DNA of 64,000 nucleotides, from the NCBI RefSeq assembly GCF_001942255.1, contig NZ_MKKC01000065.1, positions 1 through 64,000 on the forward strand, written 5' to 3'. How positions within the stretch are numbered: the stretch's first letter is position 1; each line of letters begins with the position of its first letter. The stretch comes from Nocardiopsis sp. CNR-923. GTDB lineage: Bacteria > Actinomycetota > Actinomycetes > Streptosporangiales > Streptosporangiaceae. Shown in pieces: positions 3,410 to 14,371 of the stretch. The notes beneath the pieces are model-generated. The model did not search any database. It was not told the origin of the DNA and saw nothing but the letters and a program-made list of their open reading frames with translations. Made by a program: the position numbers and the translations under genes.

Positions 3410-4021
3410 ATGATCGCGTTCCTCACCGGCCGGGTGGCCGCACGCGGCGCGGACACCGCCGTGATCGACGTCGGCGGGGTCGGCATGACCGTGCGGTGCA
3501 CCCCCGCCGCCCTCTCCGGCCTGCGCGTCGGCGAGACCGGGACGGTCGCCACCAGCCTGGTGGTCCGCGAGGACTCGCTGACCCTCTTCGGGTTCGCCGA
3601 CGACGACGAGCGCCACCTGTTCGAGCAGCTCCAGACCGCGTCCGGAGTCGGCCCCCGCCTGGCCCTGGCCATGCTCGCCGTCCACAGCCCGTCGAGCCTG
3701 CGCCACGCCGTGGCCACCGAGGACACCGCCGCGCTCACCCGTGTGCCCGGCATCGGCAAGAAGGGCGCCCAGCGCATCGTCCTCGAACTGTGCGGCAAGC
3801 TCGACGTCCCTGACTTCGGCGCAGGCGCACCGCCCGCCGCACCGGGCACCGGCGAACCGAACGGCGCCTGGCGCGGCCAGGTCGTGTCCGGCCTGGTCAA
3901 CCTCGGCTGGTCCGCCAAGGACGCCGAGTCCGCCGCCTCCGCCGTCGCCGCCGAGGCCGAGGCCACCTCCGACGTCTCCGTCCTGCTGCGCAGCGCCCTG
4001 CGCAAGCTCAGCCGAGCCTAG
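3410..4021 (+). CDS. ruvA: Holliday junction DNA helicase subunit RuvA
   Basis: RuvA is the tetrameric junction-binding platform that recruits the RuvB motor. The 203-residue protein has the N-terminal OB fold (MIAFLTGRVAARG), two helix-hairpin-helix DNA-binding motifs (around SGVGPRLALAML and VPGIGKKGAQRIVLEL, residues about 80-130), a linker rich in Ala/Pro/Gly, and the small C-terminal domain III (LVNLGWSAKDAESA) that contacts RuvB. Length is normal. It lies 12 bases upstream of ruvB, so the two are surely co-transcribed. Confidence 0.96.
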   Translation: MIAFLTGRVAARGADTAVIDVGGVGMTVRCTPAALSGLRVGETGTVATSLVVREDSLTLFGFADDDERHLFEQLQTASGVGPRLALAMLAVHSPSSLRHAVATEDTAALTRVPGIGKKGAQRIVLELCGKLDVPDFGAGAPPAAPGTGEPNGAWRGQVVSGLVNLGWSAKDAESAASAVAAEAEATSDVSVLLRSALRKLSRA

Positions 4022-4033
4022 GAACCGACCCCC

Positions 4034-5062
4034 ATGCACGAACGCGACGCCGTGTCCCCCGACGCCCAGGGCGACGAACGCCAACTGGAGGGCGCCCTGC
4101 GCCCGCGCGGGCTCGACGAGTTCGTCGGCCAGGAACGGGTGCGCGAACAGCTCTCCCTGGTGCTGCGCAGCGCCCAGCGGCGCAACCGGGCCCCCGACCA
4201 CATCCTCATGTCCGGCGGTCCCGGCCTCGGCAAGACCACGCTCGCCATGATCATCGCCGCGGAGATGGGCGCCCCGCTGCGCATCACCTCCGGACCGGCC
4301 ATCGAACGCTCCGGCGACCTGGCCGCCGTCCTGTCCACCCTCCAGGAGGGCGAGGTCCTCTTCCTCGACGAGATCCACCGCATGGCCCGCCCCGCCGAGG
4401 AGATGCTCTACGTCGCCATGGAGGACTTCCGGGTCGACGTGGTCGTGGGCAAGGGGCCCGGCGCCACCGCGATCCCCATCGACATCGCGCCGTTCACCCT
4501 GGTCGGGGCGACGACCCGGGCGGGCATGCTCCCCGCGCCCCTGCGCGACCGCTTCGGGTTCACCGCGCACATGGACTTCTACACACCCGAGGAACTCGAA
4601 CTCATCCTCCACCGCTCGGCGGGCCTGCTCGGGGCGCCCCTGGACGAGGACGCCGCACGGGAGATCGCCGGGCGCTCGCGCGGCACCCCCCGCATCGCCA
4701 ACCGGCTCCTGCGCCGCGTCCGCGACTACGCCGAGGTCAGGGGCGACGGCAGGCTCTCCCTGACGACCGCTCGCGCGGCCCTGGAACTGTACGAGGTCGA
4801 CGCGCTCGGCATGGACCGCCTCGACCGCGCCATCCTCGACGTCCTGCTGCGGCGGTTCCGCGGCGGGCCCGTGGGCCTGTCGACCCTCGCCGTGTCCGTG
4901 GGGGAGGAGGCCGAGACCGTGGAGGTGGTCGCCGAGCCCTTCCTGGTCCGCTCCGGCTTCCTGGCCCGTACGCCGCGCGGCCGGGTCGCCACCCCGCAGG
5001 CCTGGGCGCACATGGGACTGACCCCGCCGCCCGACGCCGCCTTCGGCGCTGCCGCACCGTGA
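4034..5062 (+). CDS. ruvB: Holliday junction branch migration ATPase RuvB
   Basis: RuvB is the hexameric AAA+ motor that drives branch migration on RuvA-bound junctions. The 342-residue protein shows the RuvB N-terminal signature ([19 protein letters not shown]), Walker A in [12 protein letters not shown] at about residues 59-70, Walker [10 protein letters not shown] near 111-119, sensor 1 in LVGATTRAG, the arginine finger in LRDRFGF, and a C-terminal winged helix ([20 protein letters not shown]). It is complete and is the last gene of the ruv unit; a 268-base gap follows. Confidence 0.97.
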
Positions 5063-5330: not shown

Positions 5331-5696
5331 GTGCAGGGCATTTACACTCTCGCCGCCGAAGGAGAGCCCACCGGGGGTCTCCTGAACATGATTCTGCCGT
5401 TCGCGCTGATCCTCCTGGTGTTCTGGCTGCTGTTCTGGCGGCCGAACCAGAAGCGTCGCCAGCAGGAGTCGCAGATGATGAACGCGCTCGTCCCCGGCGT
5501 CGAGGTCATGACCAAGGCGGGCATCTTCGCCACCGTCGTGGAGGTCAACGAGCAGGACGTCCTGCTGGAGATCGCCCCCGGCACCCGGATCCGCATGCTC
5601 AAGGCCGGTGTGGGCGAGGTCATCACCCCGCCCGCGGACGACACCCCGGTGGAGGACCGTCCCGACTTCGGCGACGACGACAAGCCGAACAGCTGA
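5331..5696 (+). CDS. yajC: Preprotein translocase subunit YajC
   Basis: YajC is a small inner-membrane partner of the SecDF complex that assists Sec-dependent export. The 121-residue protein has one N-terminal membrane segment (about residues 18-37, MILPFALILLVFWLLFW) followed by the basic RPNQKRRQQ stretch and a soluble domain with the family's VMTKAGIFATVVEV motif, then an acidic tail. GTG 5331 is chosen because GGAAGGA lies eight bases upstream. Oddly, secD and secF, which normally follow yajC in actinomycetes, are not here; a hairpin and then apt follow within 90 bases. Confidence 0.93.
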   Translation: MQGIYTLAAEGEPTGGLLNMILPFALILLVFWLLFWRPNQKRRQQESQMMNALVPGVEVMTKAGIFATVVEVNEQDVLLEIAPGTRIRMLKAGVGEVITPPADDTPVEDRPDFGDDDKPNS

Positions 5697-5718
5697 TCTC
5701 CCACCGGTCGCACACTCC

Positions 5719-5750
5719 CCGGTACCGGTCCCGTACGGGGCCGGTACCGG
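5719..5750. terminator. Palindrome between yajC and apt
   Basis: CCGGTACCGG is repeated as both arms of a 32-base inverted repeat whose centre (TCCCGTACGGGG) is also self-complementary except for one G-U type pair. The transcript would form a very stable hairpin on either strand. There is no T-run, so it may be a factor-independent terminator of the GC-rich kind or simply a structured spacer. Confidence 0.45.
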
Positions 5751-5786
5751 CGTGTCCGGCCCGCCACGAGTAAGGTCCCACCACCC

Positions 5787-6341
5787 ATGTCCCACGACCC
5801 CGCGACCGCCGCGGCCGGCCGCCTCGACGGTCTGATCCGGTCCCACGTCCGCGACGTGCCCGACTTTCCCCAGCCCGGGGTGATGTTCAAGGACATCACG
5901 CCGCTGCTCAACGACCGGGAGGCCTTCGGGGCCACCGTCCGGGGACTGGCCGAACCCTTCCAGGCCGATGGGGTGGACCACGTGCTCGGTCTGGAGGCGC
6001 GCGGCTTCATCTTCGGCGCCCCCGTGGCGCTCGCGCTGGGAGCGGGCTTCGTCCCCGCGCGCAAAGCTGGGAAACTGCCCTCGGCGACCATCGGTCAGGC
6101 CTATGATCTGGAGTACGGCACCGCGACCGTGGAGATCCACTCCGACGCGATCCCGGCCGGAAGCCGCGTGCTCATCGTCGACGACGTGCTCGCCACCGGC
6201 GGCACAGGCAGGGCCGCGGTGGAGCTGGTGCGCAGGGCGGGTGGTACGGTCGTGGGATTCTCCGTCCTGATGGAGCTCTGCGCGCTCCAGGGACGCGGGA
6301 AGTTGCCGGACGTGGAGCTGCACACCCTCCTGTCGGTCTGA
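5787..6341 (+). CDS. apt: Adenine phosphoribosyltransferase
   Basis: Apt salvages adenine, converting it with PRPP into AMP in the cytoplasm. The 184-residue protein has the PDFPQPGVMFKDITPLL substrate-binding segment, LEARGFIFG, and the PRPP-binding loop VLIVDDVLATGGTGRA near residues 128-143. Length is normal. It precedes rel, as in many actinomycetes, and its product affects the purine pool from which (p)ppGpp is made. A gap of 286 bases separates the two genes, so rel may have its own promoter. Confidence 0.96.
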   Translation: MSHDPATAAAGRLDGLIRSHVRDVPDFPQPGVMFKDITPLLNDREAFGATVRGLAEPFQADGVDHVLGLEARGFIFGAPVALALGAGFVPARKAGKLPSATIGQAYDLEYGTATVEIHSDAIPAGSRVLIVDDVLATGGTGRAAVELVRRAGGTVVGFSVLMELCALQGRGKLPDVELHTLLSV

Positions 6342-6627
6342 CCGGGGACCCCCGCCGCGCACCCGCCTGTACGGGAATGCGCGACGAATCCCCCCACGTT
6401 GAAGCTAGGACGCACCCCTCACCGCGCCCGATCGAAGGCACCGCCGGGCGCGGCCCGGGGCGTACCTGACGACCGCGTCCCCCGCGCACGCGGGACCGCA
6501 GACACTAGACTGGTGGGAGAGGTACCGCGGCGGCCACGTTCAGCGACTGGCCCTGACAACACGCACGTGCACCGGGCGGCGTCGGCGACGGCGTCCACGC
6601 GACCGGGTGGATCCGCGGGAGGTAGGC

Positions 6628-9090
<2,463 letters not shown>

Positions 9091-9200: not shown

Positions 9201-9666
9201 TCAGATGCGAATCGTCGTCGTCCGCACGATCTCGAACACCGGGTGGCGGTGGGCCTCGGCCGCGAAGGCCTCGTCCGGCGCCTCCGGCGGAGCCTCGAAA
9301 TACGGGCCCACCACGAACGCGCGCGGCTGGTCCAGGTACTCGCGGAGCACCGGGGCCGCCTCCTCGGCGTCGAGCTCGCGGACGATGGCCAACTCGATCC
9401 ACCCGCCCTGCCGCAGGGTCGCGAACCCGTCATTGCGCAGGTTGTGCACCCAGTCCACCGCCCCGTAGCGCGACCAGGTACCGGCCCCGGTCACTGTCCA
9501 GCACACTGACCGGGGTCGTCCGCAGGAAACCGGACGTGCGCCCGCGCGTCGTCAACAGGTGCAGGTCGGGCGGGCACACTCCGTACTTGACGAAGCCACT
9601 GACGAAGGCGTTGGCGGTCCGCCGCACCCGCGTCATCTCGAACCGCTTCGTCGGCTCGTTCACCAT
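9201..9666 (-). CDS. Deazaflavin-dependent nitroreductase family protein, frameshifted
   Basis: Two frames make one protein of the Ddn/DUF385 family, which binds coenzyme F420 and reduces varied substrates. The first reads VSGFVKYGVCPPDLHLLTTR, then GRTSGFLRTTPVSVLDSDRG, to YLVA; the second continues YGAVDWVHNLRNDGFATLRQ to the stop. Relatives have LVAPYGA at the junction (about 9472), which would need CCC where one C is present, so two bases are probably missing. The restored length is about 155 residues. ATG 9666 with GGGAG upstream is preferred to TTG 9675. It is the second F420-linked family member in the window. Confidence 0.75.
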
Positions 9667-9747
9667 CTTGCGCAACTCCCTCGGTCGGATGCTCCCTATT
9701 CTGGTGGTTCCGAGGGACCTGCGACACCCGAGGCGCCGCTTCGCGGG

Positions 9748-12861: not shown

Positions 12862-12977
12862 GGTCACGAGTGCCAGCGTCAAGCCCCGGCTTGCTGGCCG
12901 GCAACCCTCCTTCCGCGGTGGGGTGCCCCGGGTGAGGACCAGGTCCCGACACGACCGTGTCTGACAAGCGCGGACCC
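12862..12977 (+). ncRNA. SAM-IV riboswitch
   Basis: The sequence from GGTCACGAGTGCCAGCGTCA onward matches the SAM-IV aptamer nearly base for base as I remember the actinobacterial examples. It has the CAAGCCCCGGCTTGCTGG hairpin, CGGCAACCCTCC core, CCGCGGTGGGGTGCCCCGGG stem, closing GGACC, then a GACAC/GTGTC hairpin and AAGCGCGGACC. It lies 57 bases upstream of a class V aminotransferase gene, the usual type of target. Bound S-adenosylmethionine should switch the downstream gene off, probably by hiding its start region, since no separate terminator hairpin is obvious. Confidence 0.93.
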
Positions 12978-13034
12978 CGCAGCTGCTGCCGTGAGGCACC
13001 ACGTGGGTCCCCCGACCCACGAATGAGGTGCATC

Positions 13035-14371
13035 TTGACCACGGTCCATCAGATCCACTCCCCGCGCTCGCCCGAACCCGCCGAGTGCTCGATCGTCACC
13101 GCCGACGCCGGCGTCCCCCTCGTCACCGGCGAACGCGTCGACTACGCCAACTTCGACTACGCCGCCAGCGCCCCGTGCCTGACCTCGGTCGCCCAGGCCC
13201 TGTCGGACGCCCTGCCGCACTACGCCAGCGTGCACCGCGGCGCGGGCCACCACTCCCAGGTGAGCACCGACGCCTACGAGCGCGCTCGCCGCAGCGTCGC
13301 CCGGTTCCTGGGCGCGCGCACCGAGCCCGCCGACGCCGTGGTCTTCGTGCGCGGCACCACCGACGCCCTCAACCTCCTGGCGCGCGCCGTGCCCGAGGGC
13401 TGCACCGTGGTCGTCTTCGAGTCCGAGCACCACGCGAGCCTGCTGCCCTGGGAGCACCCCGCCTCCCGCGCGGGCGGGGTCGTGCGCCTGCCCCTGCCCG
13501 AGTCTCCCGAGGCCGCCGTCGCCGCCGCTCGGCGGGCCCTGAGCGAGCCCCCGACGGTCCGACCCTGCTGTGCGTCACCGCCGCCTCCAACGTCACCGGC
13601 GAGATCTGGCCGGTCGAGGACCTGGTCCGCGCGGCGCACGCCGAGGGAGCGCGCGTGGTGGTCGACGCCGCCCAGTACGTGCCGCACCTGCCGTTCAGCC
13701 TCGCGGCCAGCGGGGCGGACTACGTCGCACTGTCCGGACACAAGCTCTACGCGCCGTTCGGCTCCGGTGTGCTGGCCGGGCGTTCCGACTGGCTGAGCGC
13801 GGCCACTCCCTACCTGTCCGGCGGCGGGGCCACCCGCCTGGTCACCGAACACGACGTCCAGTGGAACGACCTGCCCGCGCGACACGAGGCGGGCAGCCCC
13901 AACGTCCTGGGCGCCGTCGCCCTGGCCGCGGCCTGCGACACCCTCACCCCCGCCACCCAGGAACTGCTGCACATCCGCGAGTCCGCGCTGCTGGAGCGGC
14001 TGCGCGCGGGACTGGCCGGGATCGACGGGGTCCGCGAGCTGAACCTGTGGGGGAGCGACCACGCCCGCGTGGGCATCGTGTCCTTCACCGTGGACGGGCT
14101 CCCGGCCGAGCCGTTGGCCGCCGCGCTGTCCGCGGAGTACGGGATCGGCGTGCGCGACGGGCTGTTCTGCGCCCACCCCCTGACCCGTCACCTGCTGCCC
14201 GAGGGGCACGCGCAGGCGGTGCGGGCGAGCCTGGGCCTGGGCACCTCGACCGAGCACGTCGACCGGCTCGTCGCGGCGGTCGCCGCCCTCGTCGAGCACG
14301 GTCCCCGGTGGGAGTACGCCGACTGCGACGGACGGCTGGCGCCGGTCCCGGATCCGCGCGACGTGCTTTGA
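13035..14371 (+). CDS. Class V aminotransferase / cysteine-desulfurase-like PLP enzyme, frameshifted
   Basis: A fold-type-I PLP enzyme of about 445 residues. It contains NFDYAASAPCLTSVAQALSD, VVFVRGTTDALNLLARAVPE, ESEHHASLLPWE, the PLP-phenolate Asp in VVVDAAQYVPHLPF and the Schiff-base Lys in VALSGHKLYAPFG. A missing C in the CCCCC run near 13549 splits it; after the break the protein continues PDGPTLLCVTAASNVTG. The SAM-IV riboswitch upstream places it in sulfur or methionine metabolism, perhaps sulfur mobilisation from cysteine. EgtE-like C-S lyases share this fold, and the substrate is uncertain. TTG 13035 with GAGGTG upstream is chosen; ATG 13023 is the alternative. Confidence 0.82.

Follow-up and report, generated by a model that had tools for sequence, protein, structure and literature searches.

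Nocardiopsis carries no secD–secF between yajC and apt and probably depends on a single fused SecDF2 made on demand

The yajC–apt junction and its hairpin

We analysed a 64,000-nucleotide stretch of the genome of Nocardiopsis sp. CNR-923 (the window, by which we mean this whole stretch of DNA), which carries the gene order ruvA-ruvB-yajC-apt-rel. The closest named relatives are four named Nocardiopsis, whose Apt is 74–85% identical to the one encoded here. The last frame of the block we take to be rel (RelA/SpoT-type), a name given from synteny. The features that bear on the analysis are these:

3410..4021, + strand: ruvA, upstream neighbour; open reading frame orthologous to RuvA in the ruvA-ruvB-yajC-(secD-secF)-apt-rel block of relatives
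4034..5062, + strand: ruvB, upstream neighbour; open reading frame in the syntenic block common to relatives
5331..5696, + strand: yajC, kept despite the absence of secD-secF; PF02699 match at 3.1e-23, TIGR00739 over cut-off
5697..5786, no strand: junction of 90 bases, the site of secD-secF in relatives
5719..5750, + strand: terminator-like hairpin with arms 5719-5732 and 5737-5750; from the fold and an alignment of 23 rows
5787..6341, + strand: apt, downstream neighbour; Pribosyltran PF00156 match at 1.1e-15
6607..9090, + strand: presumed rel, downstream neighbour, start codon not settled; open reading frame, with a homologous frame 3′ of apt in relatives

The gap between the yajC stop (5696) and the apt ATG (5787) measures 90 bases, 5697–5786, and holds neither secD nor secF. 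A preliminary description of this DNA had reported both the absence of the two genes and a 90-base spacing with a palindrome. The open reading frames and profile matches at 5331–6341 bear this out, and the palindrome takes the form of a 14-pair hairpin at 5719–5750. Further along the window, an acyl-CoA dehydrogenase gene at about 10488 is split between frames, as is a small gene at about 9470–9670, and a class-V aminotransferase gene (PF00266) at 12957–14371 is split over two frames near 13.56 kb, matching profile positions 2–135 and then 140–371.

The gap contains an inverted repeat of 21+21 nt, without a spacer and 86% complementary. Its core folds into a stem of 14 pairs capped by a 4-nt loop, and the 90 nt together fold at −46.1 kcal/mol (z −3.57), a stability reached by 0 of 200 shuffles. 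The core hairpin pattern was found in 21 of 24 junctions from the genus, those of G008, G017 and G032 being the ones that do not match. Across 23 aligned rows, which were picked by the core pattern and therefore favour pairing, a 13-pair stem was paired in 299 of 299 cells, and at two of the pairs both partners have changed. The observed hairpin score was reached by 1 of 500 shuffles, and the count of further pair types was no higher than in shuffles. Sliding the alignment by +3 gave a covariation of 0.105 vs 0.091 in register, but only 52.5% of cells were then paired. A repeat element was considered and rejected: a 24–38 base pattern covering the palindrome had just one site in every one of the five genomes tested. 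No U-tract follows the stem in the window; in N. ansamitocini (L185), the hairpin stem is followed by TTTTT.

Distribution of the secD–secF absence and the fused SecDF

A genome-wide search for secD and secF, the check that the preliminary description had proposed, was run with PF02355. In the genome of the window, which is 91% complete, the only full-length SecD/SecF protein found was a fused frame of 905 aa on another contig (C87:20680-23394); two further matches, on contig C141, were weak (2e-5 and 1.5e-4). Contig C87 also carries a methionyl-tRNA synthetase gene (L066 4156–5960) that is split between frames when set against a relative's protein.

In 37 of 37 genomes of the genus, the strong PF02355 matches, among the matches listed (down to E of about 4e-6), came from one fused SecDF gene, broken into two frames in G006 and G036. 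Each of the 37 has one yajC, and SecDF lies either on a separate contig from it or, in nine genomes, on the same contig 2.9–4.8 Mb away. YajC without a linked SecDF, flagged earlier as worthy of note, is real and a trait of the whole clade. In every junction read (24 of the 37 genomes), apt adjoins yajC, with 159–465 bp from the yajC stop to apt codon 24; some of the genomes behind these counts are assemblies of one or two contigs. Sister genera also show apt directly after yajC. Four named Nocardiopsis (L182–L185) have the same yajC–apt junction and a single fused SecDF each; three of these junctions are identical to those of G023, G019 and G012 and probably come from the same assemblies, so they supply names rather than independent cases.

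Among 80 named apt loci, 54 have the order yajC-secD-secF-apt and seven have yajC and apt without secD or secF; the rest show apt alone (14), no detected yajC (four) or only secF with apt (one). Across the family, at least 33 of 140 genomes, from 18 genera, plus G143 of a 19th genus, fit a fused-only rule of one strong match in a long frame far from yajC; ten lower single-match genomes are unclassed in this count (G068, one of these, has the split form), and two genomes are without a match. Many of the other family genomes keep split secD-secF next to yajC or possess the two forms together. G058, from another family, carries a fused-group SecDF and has yajC followed by apt, and Jiangella asiatica, Actinomadura livida and one Actinomycetota metagenome-assembled genome (MAG) have a single fused SecDF, with the split pair absent. 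Together with G143, these lineages probably reached the fused-only state independently. Two genomes of genus g71 (G108 and G147) were considered as further losses and rejected: yajC was not found, apt matches were weak and rel matches weaker or partial, and both were left out of the count because the segment may be unassembled. The third member of that genus has yajC, apt and rel, and the gap in the other two may be a missing segment or poor assembly.

Other arrangements were also seen. About 1.7 kb separates yajC from apt in G065 (L173 5322–7067), with no secD/secF match and with small open reading frames, up to 300 aa, on the opposite strand. One family genome, G097 (L148, L149 and L150), has the split pair and, in addition, two fused SecDF genes, and G177 and G193 have three strong PF02355 matches each.

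A SecD/F tree (SH-aLRT, quick method) was built from 75 rows, of which 43 are fused and 32 are concatenated split forms. The tree, which drew warnings for one long split branch (L081) and for rows of unusual composition, separated fused from split forms at 100% SH-aLRT over long branches. Within the fused group, the 20 rows that represent the 18 fused-only genera cluster as a single clade (99%), which adjoins fused proteins from genomes that keep both forms. The proteins of G143 and G058 also fall inside the fused group; the tree leaves out those of Jiangella asiatica, Actinomadura livida and the MAG. Judged by these affinities, the Nocardiopsis SecDF is a secondary fused paralog, SecDF2, and not split SecD plus SecF. 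Since it sits in the fused paralog clade, the split pair was lost while the fused paralog stayed.

SecDF2 also looks functional. The fused protein scores 955.7 bits against NF009583 (SecDF; cut-off 721) and exceeds the cut-offs of TIGR01129 and TIGR00966, with SecD and SecF domains in one frame, and it aligns with the Thermus thermophilus SecDF structure 3AQP over both the SecD and the SecF parts. D340, D637 and R671 have an essential role in the T. thermophilus protein; the matching ion-path residues are invariant in 75 of 75 rows and correspond to D417, D760 and R794 of the 880-aa protein. A cytoplasmic loop after TM4 contains a segment of 42–51 residues in 40 of 40 clade proteins, vs 9–13 in 23 other fused rows, 10–11 in 32 split rows and 10–12 in three further fused proteins. 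Its consensus is EEyQrQ...Y.aNKsaGm.dAt..e...ae.g.l.RRRRRAiPP.Le, and in the L066 SecDF it spans residues of about 428–472 and ends in RRRRRAIPP. We considered this insert as compensation for the loss of the split pair and rejected the idea; three lineages without the split pair (L298–L300) do not have it, and for that reason we treat it as a clade marker rather than a requirement. A long P1 linker (80–122 residues in the 20 clade rows measured) gave no rule as compensation either, being present in G071, which has both forms, and short in G143.

The simplest reading of the hairpin is a putative terminator between yajC and apt, which we infer and do not state more firmly because the window copy is without a U-tract. 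Of the 54 split named loci, 20 were checked; strong GC hairpins of at least 12 pairs occupy the secF–apt gap in 12 of them and the yajC–secD gap in three more. These, together with a loop of varying length and stem pairs that change on both sides, as for an RNA, weigh against an operator or a scar with a role of its own; that alternative draws on a near-perfect palindrome found once per genome and on the lack of a U-tract in the window, and we hold it possible but doubtful. The hairpin also bears on the earlier suggestion that an assembly collapse, driven by the palindrome, had deleted about 3 kb with secD–secF from this genome. A strong palindrome does stand at the junction and frames are broken elsewhere in this assembly, but yajC–apt recurs in all 24 genus loci and in sister genera, including assemblies of one or two contigs, the hairpin is itself kept in most of these genus junctions with compensatory changes, and the 37 genomes have SecDF far off and no split secD/secF among their strong matches. 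Collapse is contradicted by these observations, and we give it next to no weight; nor was secDF seen at this site in any of the related genus loci. As for the remaining choice between genes that had moved and genes that were lost, loss holds for the canonical pair and not for the function, a fused SecDF being present elsewhere in each genome. A move in the strict sense does not hold, since the SecDF found elsewhere is, by the tree, an old fused paralog and not the relocated ancestral pair. Relocation of the ancestral secD and secF with subsequent fusion into the present SecDF would explain why each genome has one SecDF protein at another site, but relatives carry both forms at once, and in the tree the protein of Nocardiopsis joins the fused paralog with full support and over a long branch, which makes such an origin highly improbable. 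We retain loss of the split pair, with SecDF2 kept.

The leader upstream of secDF and its predicted pairing

SecDF2 genes were examined for an ApdA-type upstream open reading frame (uORF), defined, after a first look at the motif, as lying directly upstream of secDF with a hydrophobic segment at the N terminus and R[AG]PP close to the C terminus. Such a uORF is present at 55 of 66 SecDF2 loci vs 0 of 187 control starts (ruvA, ruvB, yajC, secD, apt and rel). It is conserved in 37 of 40 clade loci, the exceptions being the genome of the window, G077 (RDPP) and G104, and in 30 of 31 other genomes of the genus examined (all save G032). The test also missed the Actinomadura livida locus (L299), which has a masked stretch upstream and, by eye, a frame ending in RAPP. 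The apdA frame is interrupted in the genome of the window, where its homologous pieces (signal segment, body and RAPP tail) fall in three frames; the interruption is likely due to draft indels, because other genes of this draft are also split between frames. Pfam and NCBIfam returned no match for the ApdA-type protein of locus L262. The parts of the literature consulted report that ApdA arrest was demonstrated for the Amycolatopsis japonica peptide (PMC7897499) and already list Streptosporangiales among the orders with ApdA (PMC7897499, PMC10987492). In Nocardiopsis-type species, arrest of ribosomes at RAPP is predicted.

In most of the clade, CCUCUCAC, just 3′ of the stall codons, can pair with GUGAGAGG, which holds the secDF Shine–Dalgarno (SD) sequence. 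With start and SD sites picked by script, 88% of cells at positions 4–11 paired in register vs 29–55% when the arms were slid by 1–4 (55 of 60 clade loci; five were dropped in which the script found the uORF or the SD lacking). At p ≤ 0.05, the duplex of uORF tail and SD beat synonymous-codon variants in 30 of 37 clade loci, including the genome of the window, and in only 7 of 22 loci outside the clade (37 and 22 scored from an input of 40 and 26). When arms were swapped between 38 loci (three Nocardiopsis kept after thinning, and a locus with a mis-set start left out), native arms paired at −16.8 vs −12.9 kcal/mol for swapped ones, with p 0.0002, which is the floor of 5000 permutations that carry no correction for relatedness beyond matched windows; by group, p was 0.0012 in the clade (16 loci) and 0.0002 outside it (22 loci). 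The native arm beat its own mean swap in 33 of the 38 loci and fell in the best 5% in three, a low number because related species share SD regions. A class-wide set, of which 17 of 28 loci were usable and four of the 17 came from the family of the window, gave −15.7 for native vs −13.1 for swapped arms (p 0.0002), and 4 of the 17 beat the synonymous null.

Control windows in the same uORFs of the 38-locus set gave z of −0.6 to 1.6 vs −8.3 for the arm; the absolute energy of the control at offset −96 is meaningless, probably owing to masked N bases in L299. For the class set, the arm reached z −4.5, one control window −1.9 (p 0.028) and an overlapping window −2.7 (p 0.0057). The two arms change together between lineages: CCUUUCAC stands with GUGAAAGG in G099, CCUCCACAG with CUGUGGAGG in G097 and G062, and several family f20 genomes combine CUCCGGCA with UGCCGGAG. 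Arm–SD pairing is weak in G118, G121, G089 and G112, among others.

Counted from the first P-site nucleotide, the clade arm occupies nt 4–11, and the edge of the ribosome is placed 15–17 nt downstream of that nucleotide in the consulted part of PMC7897499. By position, the predicted anti-SD arm falls under the footprint of a ribosome stalled at these codons. Masking the footprint in silico raised the median unpaired probability of the SD in the clade from 0.03 to 0.34 (0.03 with an equal mask placed downstream), from 0.01 to 0.24 at 22 loci outside the clade (control 0.06) and from 0.02 to 0.21 in the class set (control 0.04); in a few clade genomes (G004, G005, G082 and G101), masking lowered SD exposure. 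A putative stem that hides the secDF SD, with covariation, is found in the clade and more weakly across the class. Rfam returned nothing for the switch or the hairpin on L262 and L063, with one sub-threshold narK match elsewhere.

It could be that ApdA is present without controlling secDF through pairing, and that the complementarity reflects GC-rich codon usage together with the SD consensus. In agreement with this, the synonymous null is weak outside the clade, and structure prediction in the 2021 paper, in the part consulted, revealed no SD-sequestering hairpins for ApcA, ApdA or ApdP (PMC7897499); a later report of an ApdA stem was not found in the literature searched, which includes the accessible parts of PMC10951233, PMC10987492 and PMC12992588. 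Within the clade, however, most loci beat the synonymous null, swapped arms pair worse while neighbouring uORF windows of the 38-locus set have no effect, a second set repeats the swap result and the arms co-change between lineages. We regard the absence of such control as unlikely and favour pairing that governs secDF.

Proposed explanation and comparison with known systems

We are largely confident that the split pair was lost and that SecDF2 is the sole SecDF, probably made on demand through ApdA arrest and the anti-SD stem. The clade ancestor would have had two systems, as is still the case in many relatives: the split secD-secF pair, placed in the gap from yajC to apt, and SecDF2, located elsewhere and preceded by an ApdA uORF. 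Deletion of the split pair would then have joined yajC to apt through the terminator-like hairpin, leaving SecDF2 as the only SecDF, its synthesis probably tied to demand. The ApdA nascent chain would carry an export signal. Were ApdA pulled into Sec, translation would pass RAPP, and the codons after RAPP would pair with the secDF SD and keep it closed; were export slow, the ribosome would stall at RAPP, cover the arm and free the SD, so that more SecDF could be made. Stalling itself, its release by Sec activity and the translational induction of secDF all enter this scheme as predicted steps.

We further lean towards the view that protein export in the whole clade depends on one SecDF whose own export activity sets its translation, and that the same switch operates in many actinobacterial apdA-secDF2 operons, where it would link arrest to induction. 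Components of these kinds are already known; what is new, to the extent that the literature was searched, is the sole-copy state together with the predicted switch. The literature covered, in the parts available, treats SecDF2 behind ApdA as a presumed secondary copy and gives no route from stalling to induction. With SecDF2 as the only SecDF, the regulation could not be bypassed and could be tested with no backup present; the exact bases to test follow from the predicted switch. The YajC of these genomes, without its usual genomic partners, lends itself to asking whether YajC acts together with SecDF or on its own.

SecDF2 resembles the T. thermophilus SecDF of 3AQP in the conserved residues aligned with D340, D637 and R671; the clade proteins differ in the extended loop after TM4, against a short one in the others compared, and in the long P1 linker. 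Streptomyces coelicolor has a fused SecDF alongside split SecD/SecF, which form two separate clades with synteny around split secD-F (Zhou et al. 2014, PMC4139356). The same two forms are thus known from that species, where they coexist, whereas the fused one is the sole SecDF here. In the consulted part of that work, the split SecD/SecF is judged the more important and loss of the fused copy is discussed; its main text does not mention Nocardiopsis or Thermobifida. The outcome here would be the reverse of the one discussed for Streptomyces, in that the clade has given up the ancestral split pair and retained the regulated paralog.

In SecM-secA, VemP-secDF2 and uDF_RQH_Enterobacterales-secDF2, a Sec gene is induced when a peptide encoded upstream of it arrests, and for SecM and the Enterobacterales case the stalled ribosome is reported to open an SD-hiding stem (PMC7897499, PMC10987492, in the parts consulted). 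The arrangement proposed here differs from these SecM-type systems in that the anti-SD arm lies inside the uORF tail, a few nt after the stall codons. With published ApdA-secDF2 it shares the uORF, the N-terminal hydrophobic segment and RAPP/RGPP near the end (PMC7897499, PMC10987492). In the consulted sections of PMC7897499, the SecDF after ApdA is called presumably secondary and no SD-sequestering hairpin is reported, whereas here it is the sole SecDF of the clade and a co-varying anti-SD arm adjoins the stall codons.
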